A DNA stretch of 64,000 nucleotides from an uncultured Desulfovibrio sp. GTDB lineage: Bacteria; Desulfobacterota; Desulfovibrionia; Desulfovibrionales; Desulfovibrionaceae. Positions within the stretch are counted from its first letter, which is position 1; every line of letters begins with the position of its first letter. Under the pieces are notes generated by a model, which saw nothing but the letters and a program-made list of their open reading frames with translations, made no database searches and had not been told where the DNA came from. Both the position numbers and the translations under genes were made by a program. Where the stretch lies: NCBI GenBank assembly GCA_913063155.1, contig CAJXYU010000001.1, forward strand, positions 372,001 to 436,000. Direction: 5' to 3'. Below are positions 46,283 through 53,430 of the stretch, one piece after another.

Positions 46283-46834
46283 TCAGCCACCGACGGTAGC
46301 TCCAAAACGCCATAGTTCTTGGTCAGTAACGGCAAATCTACCGTGAGGGTATGGATAGTACCGAGTTAATTCACACTTCAACGTAAGACGGACGTTCTCG
46401 TTGCCTGCCTTCAATCGAAGATCTTTTTCCGCGGTTTTAAAATCAGGGTCATTATCAAGATATTTTCCACATAGAATTTTTACGACTTTAAGCCCTGAGT
46501 TATCCGAAATGACACGACCGAGTGATTCTATAGCAAACACATCCAAGTGCTTATCGAACATTAACAACTTGTTAGAATTCTTTACCTGTTGCCAAAACAC
46601 GCAACACTCGTAATTGCTATCATCCCGTGCATCTATGTCAGCCCTATCCAGAGGGCAGGAAAGGAAATCGCTCGCTATGCGTTTCCCATCAACAATCTTA
46701 CTGGATGGCCAAATCAGTTGAGGCTCAAGGTCTTCTTGGACCGCCACAGGGACTTGTCCAACTTGAGGAGAATCAGGAATCCTCACAGCAAGACTCCTGC
46801 TTGTTTGATCTACGATCTTCAACCCAAGCACCAA
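46283..46834 (-). CDS. Unknown 183-residue protein, middle gene of the operon
   Basis: No recognised family. It begins at a TTG (46834; GTG at 46831 is an alternative), inside the end of the PLD-like gene, a 62-bp overlap that points to translational coupling. The protein is soluble, with CPLDRADIDARDDSNYECCVFW and several charged beta-strand/turn segments near KILCGKYLDNDPDFKTAEKDL. The C-terminus (GRFAVTDQELWRFGATVGG) is well defined. Its fixed place between two larger genes suggests it works with them. Confidence concerns the gene, not its function. Confidence 0.5.
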   Translation of the reverse strand: MVLGLKIVDQTSRSLAVRIPDSPQVGQVPVAVQEDLEPQLIWPSSKIVDGKRIASDFLSCPLDRADIDARDDSNYECCVFWQQVKNSNKLLMFDKHLDVFAIESLGRVISDNSGLKVVKILCGKYLDNDPDFKTAEKDLRLKAGNENVRLTLKCELTRYYPYPHGRFAVTDQELWRFGATVGG

Positions 46835-48931: not shown

Positions 48932-50158
48932 ATGATTAGACGAAATATCACCCAAGAACTCCTTGAGGCACTAGCCGACTCACCCGTTCTCTTTCTGCGC
49001 GGAGCGCGACAGGTAGGCAAAAGCACTCTGGTCAAGGACCTGCTCGCTGATGCGTTCGAAGCCAAGTATGTCACCTTGGATAACGCCACGGCCCTGGCCT
49101 TGGCTGGCGGCGATCCTACGGCATTCATCGCAGGTCAACCAAGGCCGTTGATCATCGACGAGGTCCAGCGGGTGCCGGAGTTACTGCTGGCAATCAAGGA
49201 GGCTGTGGACAGAGATCGGAAGCCGGGAGATTTTCTGCTGACCGGATCTGCAAATCTTCTGACACTCCCCCTTGTGAGCGACTCTCTTGCCGGACGCATG
49301 GAAATACAAACTTTGTGGCCGCTCTCTCAGGCCGAAATTCATGAGCGCAAGACGGATTTCGTACAAGCTCTGTTCGACAAAGACTTCGCGCAGCAGGACG
49401 CAGCCGAAGAGTACGACCTGCCGGCCCTCTTGATAGCGGGAGGATACCCGGAAGCCATGACGCGTAAAACGCATAAGCGAAGAAGCGCATGGTTCGATTC
49501 TTACCTGACAACCATCGTTGAGCGCGACATACGCGATATTGCCCGTGTCCAGGAGACAGCCACCATGCTCAGATTGGTGCGCCTGCTCGCAACGCGCACG
49601 TCGAGCCAGCTCAACCAGTCCGAGGTGTCCAGAACCATGCAAGTGCCGAATGCGACGCTTGGACGGTACATGGACCTGCTTGAGAAGGTCTTCCTCATCC
49701 ATTTTCTTCCGGCCTGGGCTCCCAACCTCGGCAAACGCCTCGTCAAGTCGCCCAAGCTTTACATGGTGGACTGCGGCCTTGCAGCCCACCTCATGGGCAC
49801 AGACGCTGATAGGCTGGTAAGCACGCCGGAACTCGCAGGCCAACTCCTCGAAACCTTCGTGGTCAACGAAGTGCTGAAACACCTGACGTGGAGTAATGTT
49901 TCGGCCACCCCCTACCACTTCCGCACCCACGCTGGCCTTGAGGTAGACCTTGTTCTGGAAAAGCCGTCCGGCGAAATCGCGTGTGTGGAAATCAAACACT
50001 CCGCACAAGTCGCACCGAAGCACTTCCGTGGGCTGAAAGCGTTGAAGGAAGACATTGGGGCCAAATTCCAATCGGGGGTGGTGCTGCATGGTGGGACGGA
50101 GGTGGTCCCATTTGGTGAGGATATGTTTGCGGTCCCAATCAGCGCACTATGGGGATAG
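48932..50158 (+). CDS. AAA-family ATPase with DUF4143
   Basis: A 408-residue P-loop protein. The AAA_14 core comes first: FLRGARQVGKSTLV (Walker A, near residue 22-35), PLIIDEVQRVPEL (Walker B), FLLTGSANLL (sensor 1). A DUF4143 C-terminal domain follows (WAPNLGKRLVKSPKLYMVDCGLAAHL, then FRTHAGLEVDLVLEK...ACVEIKHS), which resembles a PD-(D/E)xK-like core. Such proteins are widespread and often on mobile DNA; their exact role is poorly known. It stands alone behind an operator-like repeat. Confidence 0.88.
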   Translation: MIRRNITQELLEALADSPVLFLRGARQVGKSTLVKDLLADAFEAKYVTLDNATALALAGGDPTAFIAGQPRPLIIDEVQRVPELLLAIKEAVDRDRKPGDFLLTGSANLLTLPLVSDSLAGRMEIQTLWPLSQAEIHERKTDFVQALFDKDFAQQDAAEEYDLPALLIAGGYPEAMTRKTHKRRSAWFDSYLTTIVERDIRDIARVQETATMLRLVRLLATRTSSQLNQSEVSRTMQVPNATLGRYMDLLEKVFLIHFLPAWAPNLGKRLVKSPKLYMVDCGLAAHLMGTDADRLVSTPELAGQLLETFVVNEVLKHLTWSNVSATPYHFRTHAGLEVDLVLEKPSGEIACVEIKHSAQVAPKHFRGLKALKEDIGAKFQSGVVLHGGTEVVPFGEDMFAVPISALWG

Positions 50159-50310
50159 GCGCATGGAACGCAAGAGACGTCCAACAAAGTGAACCCACTT
50201 CTGATTCAATGCGTCTTCATCAGACAATCTTATTATGTCCATGATGCCAAGGCTTCTGGCAGATGCTGAAAGGAGAAAATGTTGCGACATGTTTTAGCCC
50301 CTTAATTTAA

Positions 50311-50338
50311 GAATAGTCTACTTAAAAGTAGACTATTC
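50311..50338. promoter_or_regulatory. 28-bp perfect palindrome, probable control site of the R-M operon
   Basis: GAATAGTCTACTT, AA, then the exact complement. It lies 65 bp before the first gene of the R-M set. A second small palindrome, CCAGTT-AA-AACTGG (50341-50354), follows at once. Both lie upstream of the -35 box, in the usual place for a C-protein box. Confidence 0.65.
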
Positions 50339-50366
50339 GTCCAGTTAAAACTGGAAAAAACTAAGT

Positions 50367-50395
50367 TTGACATGATTTATCTTTTTTTGTATTTG
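50367..50395 (+). promoter_or_regulatory. Promoter of the R-M operon; transcript probably leaderless
   Basis: A perfect TTGACA, a 17-bp spacer and TATTTG. With the usual distance, transcription would start at about 50402-50403, on the A of the ATG. No ribosome site precedes that ATG. Leaderless mRNA is known for several C genes of R-M systems. Confidence 0.55.
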
Positions 50396-50402
50396 AAACT
50401 TC

Positions 50403-50633
50403 ATGGAAGAACGAGAAATATACGCCACTGAGGCAAAGCGGATCTTGGAATCCTTGATGGCCAGAAAAGGTGTCAGCTTGAAGGAACTGCACCGGAGACT
50501 TCGTGAAAACGGTGCACAAGGCGGCTACAAGGCTCTGTCGAACAAAATTAACAACGGAAGGTTTCAGTTTGCATTTTTTCTTGAGTGCATGGAACTTCTC
50601 GAAGTCAAAAACATTGATACAAAGCAGATATAA
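50403..50633 (+). CDS. DUF6471-like small protein, candidate R-M control protein
   Basis: A 76-residue protein that resembles a small helix-turn-helix: EAKRILESLMARKGVSLKELHRRLRENGAQGGYKALSNKINNGRFQFAFFLECMELL. The pattern (AK..L..LM...G.S...L...L...G......L.NKI..G.F...FFL..M..L) is that of DUF6471. It is the first gene of the set and stops 8 bp before the methylase. As the probable DNA-binding partner of the upstream palindrome, it may delay nuclease expression after entry into a new host, like C proteins. This is inference from position and size. Confidence 0.6.
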   Translation: MEEREIYATEAKRILESLMARKGVSLKELHRRLRENGAQGGYKALSNKINNGRFQFAFFLECMELLEVKNIDTKQI

Positions 50634-50641
50634 GGTGTGAA

Positions 50642-51283
50642 ATGACAGAAGCAGGCGAATACGCATACGAAGACATCATTTCTTCTTTTACGAAGAAACA
50701 ATTTTATACAGTTCTCGCCGATCCGCCGTGGAGATTTGCGAACAGAACAGGAAAAATGGCCCCTGAACACAAGAGGCTGAACAGATATGAGACCATGAAC
50801 TTGCGCGATATTGAACGTCTACCGGTTGGCGATATCGTACAAGATGCTGCACATCTTTATCTTTGGGTTCCCAATGCTCTGCTCCCGGAGGGAATCAGCG
50901 TCATGAATGCGTGGGGGTTCAACTACAAGACAAACCTTGTTTGGCATAAAATCAGAAAGGACGGCGGTCCTGATGGTCGTGGCGTTGGGTTCTACTTTAG
51001 GAACACAACGGAACTGATTCTTTTTGGAGTTCGGGGCAAAAAGGCCAGAACCCTGCAACCCGGAAGAAGCCAAGTAAACATCATCAAATCCAGAAAAAGG
51101 GAGCATTCCAGAAAGCCGGATGAGCTTTACGATATTATCGAAGCGTGTAGCCCCGGTCCCTACCTTGAACTCTTTGCCAGAGGTCCCAAAGACGGATGGT
51201 CCGTATGGGGCAACCAAGCCGAAGAGTACAGCCCCAATTGGGCCACTTACGCGAATCATTCTCAAAGTCATATTTCCAAGTAA
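50642..51283 (+). CDS. MT-A70 family adenine DNA methyltransferase
   Basis: A 213-residue SAM-dependent N6-adenine methylase. The catalytic motif DPPW is near residue 28 (VLADPPWRF). The following LNRYETMNLRDIERLPV, HLYLWVPNALLPEG and ELILFGVRGKKARTLQPG and the C-terminal HSRKPDELYDIIEACSPGPYLELFARG are typical for MT-A70 enzymes of R-M and phage origin. AAGGTG serves as ribosome site. With the next gene it forms the protective half of a restriction-modification pair; the recognition sequence cannot be read from here. Confidence 0.88.
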   Translation: MTEAGEYAYEDIISSFTKKQFYTVLADPPWRFANRTGKMAPEHKRLNRYETMNLRDIERLPVGDIVQDAAHLYLWVPNALLPEGISVMNAWGFNYKTNLVWHKIRKDGGPDGRGVGFYFRNTTELILFGVRGKKARTLQPGRSQVNIIKSRKREHSRKPDELYDIIEACSPGPYLELFARGPKDGWSVWGNQAEEYSPNWATYANHSQSHISK

Positions 51284-51339
51284 CATTATGAAATCATTCC
51301 CGTTAGTACGAAATTTAAAAACGTGCTACCAATCGAATC

Positions 51340-52206
51340 GTGAGCAAAAGCGAAATGACCAACGATACATTCAAGAAACTCTTCAAAGAAGAGTTGTTCC
51401 CCTCCGGCGACACTTCCCTACAGCCTGGAATGAAGGCTGATGCTCAGTCTGAAGTTGAACAATTTGTTTGTTCTGATATAAGAGAAGTTTATGATGTTTA
51501 CAGTTACAATCATGCCGCCGCGATTTTAAAAAATTCCTTCCCCAAGCTGTTTCAGGAAATTGAAGATGTTTTGCTCGATTTTGAAATAAATCTCGACGAT
51601 ATCAGTGCTCCGGGAAAGAATGAGTCAAATATTCCGCAGAAGCTTTCCAAAGCTCTTCGCCCTTTAGAGTGGTATGAAGCCAAAATCAAAGGCTCTTTGG
51701 TTATCATTCTTGAGAGGCACAAAGAGACATTCATTGCTGAGACAGGGAGAATGAGAAAGGAAAAGCTTCCTGACAGTGATCCTACCATCATCCATGATTA
51801 CATTGATGGGCATAAGATTGATTACGTAAAGGAAAAGATTGCGTTGGATCTGGAATGGAACAGCAAAGATCAAACCTTTGACCGGGATCTCTACGCTTTT
51901 CGCCTTTTCTATGAAGCCGGGGTCATAGAGGTGGGCGTTCTTATCACGAGAAGTGAAAAGCTCACGCCTATTTTTGAGCAGATTCCACGGAAAAACAAAG
52001 ATGGTGTTATCGAGCGAGACAAGGAAGGAAATGCTATCTCGGTGAAGGCAAAATACGGAGCCAGCACAACTTGGATGGGCAAGCTGATTCATCGTCTGAA
52101 TGCTGGCCGGCATGGCGGCTGTCCTGTCCTTGTTTTTGGGATTAGGCCTGATATCGTTCAGGGTTGGCCTGTCAAACTGGAAGATTTCAATTCGGAGTCT
52201 TTTTGA
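51340..52206 (+). CDS. BglII-like type II restriction endonuclease
   Basis: A 288-residue protein. The core IDYVKEKIALDLEWNSKDQTFDRDLYAFRLFYEAGVIEVGVLITR (about residues 160-205) carries Asp, Glu and Asn/Lys at the spacing of the BglII/BamHI-type PD-(D/E)xK site (ALDLEWNSKD). The first half is helical, as in that family. The start is GTG 51340 or ATG 51355; neither has a good ribosome site. It follows the methylase at 56 bp, a standard order that ensures protection first. Alternative: an inactive homologue, since the family varies widely. Confidence 0.75.
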   Translation: MSKSEMTNDTFKKLFKEELFPSGDTSLQPGMKADAQSEVEQFVCSDIREVYDVYSYNHAAAILKNSFPKLFQEIEDVLLDFEINLDDISAPGKNESNIPQKLSKALRPLEWYEAKIKGSLVIILERHKETFIAETGRMRKEKLPDSDPTIIHDYIDGHKIDYVKEKIALDLEWNSKDQTFDRDLYAFRLFYEAGVIEVGVLITRSEKLTPIFEQIPRKNKDGVIERDKEGNAISVKAKYGASTTWMGKLIHRLNAGRHGGCPVLVFGIRPDIVQGWPVKLEDFNSESF

Positions 52207-52301
52207 TCATTGTGCAACTGGTGCATAATACCGTTTAATGCAATATATTAATTATTGATTGTAAATTAAGATTTGCACACAATAATGTTCTTTTATTCTA
52301 A

Positions 52302-53075
52302 TCAATTTGAACTATTTTTCCGAAAAATAAATCGTTTTGTAAACATATCATCCCCAAAACAATAAATTTCAACAACTGCATATTTAAATTTGCTAGGTTC
52401 TTTAAATCTAAATATAACAGGGTTATCATTTACAAATGACAAAATTCCATCATCTCTTGGAGTAAAACTAATAAGCAATGAGTCAACTCGTGTATTAATA
52501 TCGTACGGTGTAATTTGTTTTTTCCAAATATTTATATTATCTAATGAAGTAATCGTACTATCAGCAATTGAAGCATGCCATTTTTCACCCAAACATGTAT
52601 CAATTTCTTCAAAAGTTAAGTTCTCTTGCGAGTGACATCTTATAAAATCTTCTACAGAAAGGGTAGTTCCTAACCGCATATCACCATCAAAATGATCTTC
52701 ATTATTTTCGTTTCTGACCCATCCTTTATTTCTATAAAGCAATGTAGGCTCACCATGTCTTTGATTCATATATTTTATAATTCTTATAGAAATATATGTT
52801 TTTTTCTTTACATCTGATGTATGATTAATTTGAAAATAATGAACTTGATTTGCAGTCAATATGTAATCACTTCCCTTATCATTAAGTATTTTAAACTTAT
52901 TAGCATTTTTAGCATCTTTCTCGCTGAAACATCCTACAAGGTAAGCAACATCACCTGAAATTGTATTTGAATAAAAATCACCAACACCTGTAACAGTGTC
53001 TATAACATCAATAGATTTACTTTGTGCAAAAACAAGAGATGGGCACATTATAATTATAATAATCACTCTAATCAT
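52302..53075 (-). CDS. Secreted hypothetical protein, AT-rich pair
   Basis: A 257-residue protein with a signal peptide (MIRVIIIIIMCPSLVFAQS). Codon use is strongly AT-rich, unlike everything else here. The mature part is beta-rich, with Cys in VGCFSEKD, RCHSQEN and DTCLGEK (and one near the end, EIYCFGDD), possible disulfide partners. No known domain. The start shares 8 bp with the end of the 4-TM gene (ATGATTAG), so the two are translated together. Recent transfer from an AT-rich host is likely. Confidence 0.65.
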   Translation of the reverse strand: MIRVIIIIIMCPSLVFAQSKSIDVIDTVTGVGDFYSNTISGDVAYLVGCFSEKDAKNANKFKILNDKGSDYILTANQVHYFQINHTSDVKKKTYISIRIIKYMNQRHGEPTLLYRNKGWVRNENNEDHFDGDMRLGTTLSVEDFIRCHSQENLTFEEIDTCLGEKWHASIADSTITSLDNINIWKKQITPYDINTRVDSLLISFTPRDDGILSFVNDNPVIFRFKEPSKFKYAVVEIYCFGDDMFTKRFIFRKNSSN

Positions 53076-53430
53076 TTGGACCTCGCATGACTATTGTAGA
53101 AATTACTCCCCAAACAATAATTAAAATAGAGAGTGAATATAATGGAAATCCTAATGAAAGGTATTTATATGATACAACAATCCACCAAACAGGAAATGTA
53201 AGTGTTGAAAATATAATATATTTCCAACTTTTTACTTGCCTAATCAGCCATTGATAAAATGGTGTTAATATAAAAAAAACAATCCCACATCCATATAATA
53301 TATTTTTATCAACTACATTTTGATCCGATATAATATTTATTATTGCTAAATATGCAAATATTATTTCAGTTGGAATAATTTTAGAAAAAATATCTAATTT
53401 ATTATTTGTAGTACTACTATCTAAGTTCAT
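53068..53430 (-). CDS. Four-helix membrane protein, AT-rich pair
   Basis: A 120-residue inner-membrane protein with four hydrophobic segments near residues 24-40, 45-60, 70-88 and 95-112, preceded by a short polar head. The motif IPTEIIFAYLAI opens helix 1; I have seen similar N-termini in small membrane proteins next to effector genes but cannot name the family. A strong GGAGGGG ribosome site precedes ATG 53430. It is the first gene of the pair, so it may anchor, export or neutralise the secreted partner. Confidence 0.65.
   Translation of the reverse strand: MNLDSSTTNNKLDIFSKIIPTEIIFAYLAIINIISDQNVVDKNILYGCGIVFFILTPFYQWLIRQVKSWKYIIFSTLTFPVWWIVVSYKYLSLGFPLYSLSILIIVWGVISTIVMRGPND

Follow-up and report, generated by a model that had tools for sequence, protein, structure and literature searches.

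A restriction-modification (R-M) system that enters a new host has to hold back its nuclease while the DNA there is still unprotected, and one established means to this end is a controller protein. In the excerpts of two papers (PMC4824078, PMC12707154), C proteins such as C.BclI, C.Esp1396I, C.AhdI and C.Csp231I are described as small helix-turn-helix (HTH) proteins whose genes head the R-M genes, with palindromic sites upstream of the controller's own gene and, possibly, a leaderless start. These sites are usually paired palindromes, with operators of the form GACT-tat-AGTC or CTAAG-n5-CTTAG (excerpts of PMC4824078). The type I R-M controller HsdC of Mycoplasma gallisepticum is encoded upstream of type I genes and binds direct repeats, (GTGTTAN5)2, and no palindromes (PMC5282649).

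The locus described here lies in the window, by which we mean the whole 64,000-nucleotide stretch of an uncultured Desulfovibrio genome that was analyzed. We infer, with a probability of roughly three in four, that it is a type II R-M set in which a DUF6471 protein acts as a C-protein-like autoregulator that would bind upstream of its own gene. As in the C protein systems, a small protein, here with a predicted model of the same fold, heads the R-M genes, possibly has a leaderless start, and has palindromic candidate sites upstream that are known from sequence alone. The locus differs from those systems in that DUF6471 is a different Pfam family, without a match to HTH_3, in that the sequences of the palindromes are not those of C protein operators, and in its order of controller, methylase and nuclease on one strand. 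The literature searched, in which work on controller proteins is mainly on classical C proteins, holds no mention of DUF6471 or PF20075. Within that literature, an earlier note's remark that DUF6471 was not known to be described as a controller holds; a systematic prediction of C-protein sites, reportedly made by Sorokin in 2009, lies outside it.

The DUF6471, Methylase and Nuclease Genes

The set consists of three plus-strand genes separated by gaps of 8 and 56 bp. The first, at 50403–50633, encodes the 76-aa DUF6471 (PF20075) protein, a predicted XRE-like HTH protein with a Pfam E-value of 4.4e-20 (71.8 bits against a cut-off of 26.8, over model positions 1–65 of 65). It heads the R-M genes, as C protein genes do. 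An MT-A70 adenine methyltransferase of 213 aa follows at 50642–51283 (E 1.7e-30, DPPW motif intact), and then a BglII/BstYI-family restriction endonuclease of 288 aa at 51340–52206 (Endonuc-BglII E 2.7e-45, model covered from 1 to 163 of 163), whose start is GTG 51340 or ATG 51355. These matches and the shared strand bear out the earlier note, which had an MT-A70 methylase and a BglII-like nuclease following the small gene. Six residues of the nuclease (D161, E172, W173, N174, K176 and D177) are invariant across seven aligned members, and both enzyme genes appear intact and of the right families for a predicted type II R-M set; from the nuclease family one might guess at a target of the RGATCY type. 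With NCBIfam, none of the three proteins had a match over the cut-off, and the DUF6471 protein gave a sub-threshold match to an IS21 transposase model. A single-sequence structure prediction of the nuclease was unusable (pLDDT 37).

Related enzyme pairs were found on plasmids. The methylase is 62–73% identical to six plasmid homologues, each of which is accompanied by a BglII/BstYI-family nuclease (L006, L007, L009–L012), and the six nucleases compared are 24–52% identical to that of the window. The plasmid pairs differ in that the nuclease gene comes first or is convergent and in that they are without DUF6471. The region from 50159 to 52300 has a G+C content of 43%, versus 57% in the whole window, which fits a horizontal acquisition.

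Paired Palindromes Upstream of the DUF6471 Gene

The putative operator op1 (50311–50338) has the sequence GAATAGTCTACTT-AA-AAGTAGACTATTC, a perfect inverted repeat of 13 bp around an AA center. The earlier note had described an exact complement following after 2 bp, and the arms are indeed exact complements, with a dyad score (14.1) beyond that of all 1000 dinucleotide shuffles of the upstream region (maximum 11.1). Its description of the whole as a 28-bp perfect palindrome needs a small correction, as the AA center is asymmetric and symmetry therefore extends to 26 of the 28 positions. No other sequence in the window matches op1 at ≤3 mismatches, and none of 100 shuffles held a match.

The follow-up analysis found a second putative operator, op2, which was absent from the earlier note. 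It occupies 50340–50355 and reads TCCAGTT-AA-AACTGGA, that is, TCCAGTTAAAACTGGA. The inner 14-mers of the two are CTA-CTTAAAAG-TAG in op1 and CCA-GTTAAAAC-TGG in op2, and together they form an in-register direct repeat with a distance of 23 bp (17 nt, 76% identical). The DUF6471 gene is thus preceded by what appear to be paired palindromic operators, and their arms shorten toward the promoter from 13 bp in op1 to 7 bp in op2. A possible third dyad, AAACTAAGTTT, at 50358–50368 and touching the −35 element, is speculative: its score of 5.2 falls short of what shuffles attain on average at their best (5.9), so that on its own it is within chance.

Exact matches to the pattern common to op1 and op2 occur in the 4.3-Mb genome at the DUF6471 locus only. 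The other matches have two mismatches, and reversing the pattern as a control yields no fewer of these; a wider regulon governed through op1/op2-like sites was therefore rejected.

Promoter and Transcript Start

The top-scoring promoter pair in 50159–50410 (score 9.6) is a plus-strand TTGACA at 50367–50372 and, after a 17-bp spacer, a weak TATTTG at 50390–50395. This pair would place +1 at the ATG of the DUF6471 gene (50403) or 1–3 nt before it, giving a leader of 0–3 nt. The promoter scoring was based on hexamer frequencies, and 28.5% of 200 shuffles reached the same score (shuffle mean best 8.7). A consensus scan omits the pair because its −10 is without T at position 6. A second candidate, TTAAGA-16-TAGACT, scored 8.1 and overlaps op1, with its −10 at 50329–50334. 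Leaderless transcription, with a start on the ATG as the earlier note had proposed, is accordingly no stronger than plausible: the best-scoring promoter would produce it, but that promoter is no better than those of shuffled sequence, its −10 is missed by the consensus scan, and there is a second candidate over op1. The same note had seen no ribosome site before the 76-residue reading frame, and by eye there is no Shine-Dalgarno-like stretch before this ATG.

Predicted Fold and Sequence Relations of the DUF6471 Protein

An AlphaFold2 model of the DUF6471 protein, based on an alignment of 61 sequences with that of the window first, had a pLDDT of 93 and predicts helices at residues 3–22, 26–35, 42–51 and 56–65. 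The third of these (GYKALSNKIN, residues 42–51) was taken to be the recognition helix. When the model was compared to the PDB with Foldseek, the first four matches were chains of C.BclI and C.Esp1396I, ahead of HipB; the probability for C.BclI was 0.96 and the TM score 0.66, with every Foldseek E-value >0.5. VIA-align gave Z scores of 8.4 for C.Esp1396I and 8.1 for C.BclI, values that can reflect a common arrangement, as the program warns; the XRE-like fold is common, and the XRE protein 3f6w, which is no C protein, ties with C proteins at Z 7.9. Overall, the model is consistent with a small, single-domain XRE-like HTH protein, as the C proteins are.

Relations at the sequence level were different. 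The protein matches no Pfam HTH family, with Pfam giving DUF6471 and a sub-threshold AprA_N, and a DUF6471 profile searched against PDB sequences had no meaningful match, C proteins included. Alignment of the DUF6471 profile with hhalign to an HTH_3 regulator beside a BglII-family nuclease had a probability of 0.9%. These comparisons place DUF6471 outside the HTH_3-type sequence family of known C proteins and, because of this negative membership, we do not class it as a classical C protein. The hhalign probability was 95 for the XRE protein L200, a comparison that is not independent since L200 had been retrieved with that profile in the first place, and relative to L200 the DUF6471 protein has five more residues before the third helix. 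Weak matches to the profile were mostly ORFs of about 240–320 aa, and the four that were inspected (L200, L201, L202 and L251) resemble XRE regulators.

Distribution of the DUF6471 Family and Its Upstream Sequences

Members of the family were collected by a pattern scan and by genome searches. Based on record titles, DUF6471 genes occur in several phyla, among others Pseudomonadota, Bacteroidota and Campylobacterota. They are uncommon: when 395 genomes were drawn from the phylum of the window, 2 had one. In the window's taxonomic family, 8 of 288 genomes have one (the window's own included), all in one genus, and the other DUF6471 proteins there and their upstream palindromes are unlike those of the window. 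A search of viral contigs with the window's DUF6471 protein alone returned no relative, and phages likewise gave no match.

The best dyad within 150 bp upstream was scored for the 123 of 125 DUF6471 ORFs that had enough upstream sequence, the window's included. Dyads with p ≤ 0.05 preceded 47 of these 123 genes versus 25 of 212 other upstream regions of the same loci, and at p ≤ 0.01 the counts were 19/123 and 12/212, with the control regions themselves somewhat above chance. A core resembling CATATATG, counted in five spellings, was counted 70 times, spread over 58 of 154 single-domain DUF6471 loci (shuffles: mean 5.2, maximum 10) and absent from the 212 control upstream regions; these family operator counts include related, non-independent sequences. 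The promoter consensus in Bacteroidota is TTTG and TAnnTTTG, and part of the CATATATG motif in that phylum may be this consensus.

Other arrangements were noted as well. By eye, a promoter in L070, L083, L116, L122, L150, L161 and others, mostly Alphaproteobacteria according to their titles, had as many as three copies of the putative operator: an inverted pair about 50–110 bp upstream and a copy over the likely −10. Tandem two-domain DUF6471 proteins were found in L013 (3953–4507), L062, L063, L079, L092, L110, L112, L125, L135, L156, L163 and others, the named records being Burkholderiales, and by eye several of these loci had a palindrome resembling GTGTGTTTNCACAC near the start codon.

Putative Recognition Helix and Operator Arms

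The core of the window's putative operators, TTAAAA, differs from the family core CATATATG. To compare arms and helices, with the window left out, we took 14-mers that fit NNN-C[AT]....[AT]G-NNN and whose arms are near-symmetric, and a third-helix pattern, YK....K[IVL][NT] (the YK helix). Of 11 YK-helix loci with such a 14-mer, 6 had CTA or CCA on one or both sides, and none of 52 other loci did (Fisher p 6.8e-6); in 4 of the 11 both sides had them. In the window, op1 carries CTA on both sides and op2 CCA on both sides, the core of op2 falling outside the 14-mer pattern. Half-sites TCYAC/GTRGA numbered 28 in 16 YK loci (mean 5.6 and maximum 15 in 100 shuffles) and 45 in 154 other loci, versus 55 in shuffles. 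Neither test was blind, because the helix pattern and the arm sequences had been spotted at the same time.

A tree places the protein of the window on a long branch next to L100 and L108 (support 0.76), outside the YK clade, so its tie to the YK group is through the third helix, not through the tree. The palindrome upstream of L100 has different arms (AATCATATATGATT). Like the differing core and the place in the tree, this tells against the link.

Genes Neighboring DUF6471 and a Possible Wider Role

With the window left out, 86 of 133 DUF6471 ORFs were followed on the same strand, within 400 bp, by a gene of 90 aa or more. Among these 86 directly downstream genes, Pfam identified 24 with C5 DNA_methylase, 8 with N6_Mtase and 3 with N6_N4_Mtase, and clustering with motifs counted 35 of the 86 as DNA methylases; the 24 C5 genes are one cluster, largely of Bacteroidota, and so fewer independent events. 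As a control, 77 genes elsewhere in these loci gave one N6_Mtase among the best 25 of 82 families. With its N-6 DNA methylase and S subunit downstream of DUF6471, L004 has an arrangement comparable to that of HsdC (PMC5282649), and the eight N6_Mtase genes recall it too; the likeness is one of gene arrangement.

In the window, a putative controller and R-M genes may be joined in a way that is rare. This is because MT-A70 was not among the best 25 of 36 families downstream of the other DUF6471 genes, and because DUF6471 was found in none of 37 MT-A70 loci fetched, of which 6 came from 57 plasmid records and 31 were viral, with some truncated by contig ends. The search for DUF6471/MT-A70 pairs elsewhere that the earlier note had suggested thus returned none from these 37 loci. 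In the genus, just one further BglII-family locus passed the cut-off (L266, in genome G614); it was rejected as a counterpart, having no MT-A70, nuclease or DUF6471 match to the window proteins; a neighboring gene there resembles a C5 methylase by eye. The small genes beside three other BglII-family systems had no match to DUF6471 and were weakly RHH-like (L007, L009) or HTH_3 (L008).

The C-protein-like role may extend to part of the DUF6471 family, beyond this locus. We lean, by a modest balance, toward DUF6471 being a second, phylum-spanning family of R-M controllers, separate from the classical C proteins, that would autoregulate varied methylase operons (type I, C5, N4/N6 and MT-A70) through tandem palindromes NNN-CATATATG-NNN. 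The outer triplet would follow the recognition helix, being CTA/CCA with YK helices, CAT with alphaproteobacterial helices and TTG with Bacteroidota helices, and the window member would have moved to a TTAAAA core. If DUF6471 is a controller in several phyla, this could explain the timing of type I and C5-type systems without a recognized C protein; it would also provide a directly testable relation of helix to operator, and the presence of DUF6471 would then mark out R-M genes.

A broader alternative, which we regard as quite possible but somewhat short of even odds, is that DUF6471 is a general regulator on mobile islands with R-M genes as one client, which for the present locus is compatible with control of the R-M set. 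The 51 of 86 downstream genes that are not methylases would suit such a regulator, as would the transposition genes of these loci: TnsD (3/77), TniB (2/77) and TniQ (2/77) were among the control genes and a TnsA-domain gene is near DUF6471 in L004. Set against this, the commonest identified class downstream is DNA methylase, whether C5, N6 or N4, and further downstream genes are R-M- or defense-like (HSDR_N_2 in 2/86, SIR2_2 in 1 and DUF4007 in 1). By eye, a 285-aa ORF in L003 is also TnsA-like. Four related proteins directly downstream of DUF6471, in L064, L084, L093 and L113, formed one cluster and are a possible second class of DUF6471 partner; they are probably the DUF5131 genes that were identified in 4 of the 86.

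Proposed Mode of Control

Fold, operators and neighborhood support a predicted C-protein-like logic for the locus, and in these respects the earlier note's view of DUF6471 in the controller position stands, with its leaderless start weakened and its palindrome reduced as described above. In the mechanism that we propose, DUF6471 dimers would bind op1 and op2 upstream of their own gene, and this binding would set, by feedback, the transcription of DUF6471, the methylase and the nuclease, the three genes probably being co-transcribed. As to the sign of control, our tentative first choice, by analogy with C proteins, is activation from the distal sites at a low level of the protein and repression at a high level. 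This is because both sites, at −78.5 and −55.5 relative to the best-scoring promoter, lie upstream of its −35, and the shortening of the arms toward the promoter is as expected of an activator that turns repressor.

Repression only is our next choice and a less probable one. Such a pure autorepressor would share the core of the preferred reading, with DUF6471 acting as in those relatives whose operator covers the −10, and the operative promoter in the window could then be TTAAGA-16-TAGACT over op1, giving a leader some 62 nt long. Of the 154 loci searched, 17 showed a promoter pattern, and the core was over the −10 in nine of the 17, mostly in alphaproteobacterial groups (TTGTCA...TATGAT type; 4/5 and 2/4); the promoter over op1 scores 8.1, versus 9.6 for TTGACA/TATTTG and a mean best of 8.7 in shuffles. 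Against repression alone, both palindromes are upstream of the best-scoring promoter and away from its core, and the promoter pattern was found in 0 of 17 loci of the YK group and 0 of 26 of the Bacteroidota group, leaving it without support from those groups.

That the palindromes serve another regulator or function, for example as a recombination site or a terminator, with DUF6471 adjacent by chance, is improbable: long palindromes can have many roles, op1 and op2 are putative operators, and the window core is not that of the family, but on neither strand is the palindrome followed by a T-run and a terminator scan omits it (an intrinsic terminator was rejected on these grounds), palindromes recur upstream in the DUF6471 family, the arms in the window are common to the YK-helix group, and two in-register copies are found, genome-wide, at the DUF6471 locus only.

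Flanking Genes and Frequencies of BglII/BstYI-Type Sites

The palindromes and R-M genes are flanked by genes of other kinds. Directly upstream of the palindromes is an AAA_14/DUF4143 ATPase gene (48932–50158), which corresponds to the PADLOC candidate defense family PDC-S01 (E 6.7e-165), and a minus-strand gene at 46773–48341 matches PDC-S05 (E 2.9e-13). After the R-M genes, 52302–53430 holds two minus-strand genes in AT-rich DNA, one for a 257-aa product with sub-threshold similarity to DUF6709 and the other for a 120-aa product without a clear Pfam match. In the whole window, RGATCY occurred 27 times, whereas 30 dinucleotide shuffles had 77 on average; for GATC the counts were 234 versus 339 in shuffles, and for AGATCT 8 versus 12. 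The scarcity of RGATCY might point to a site of the BglII/BstYI type being avoided.
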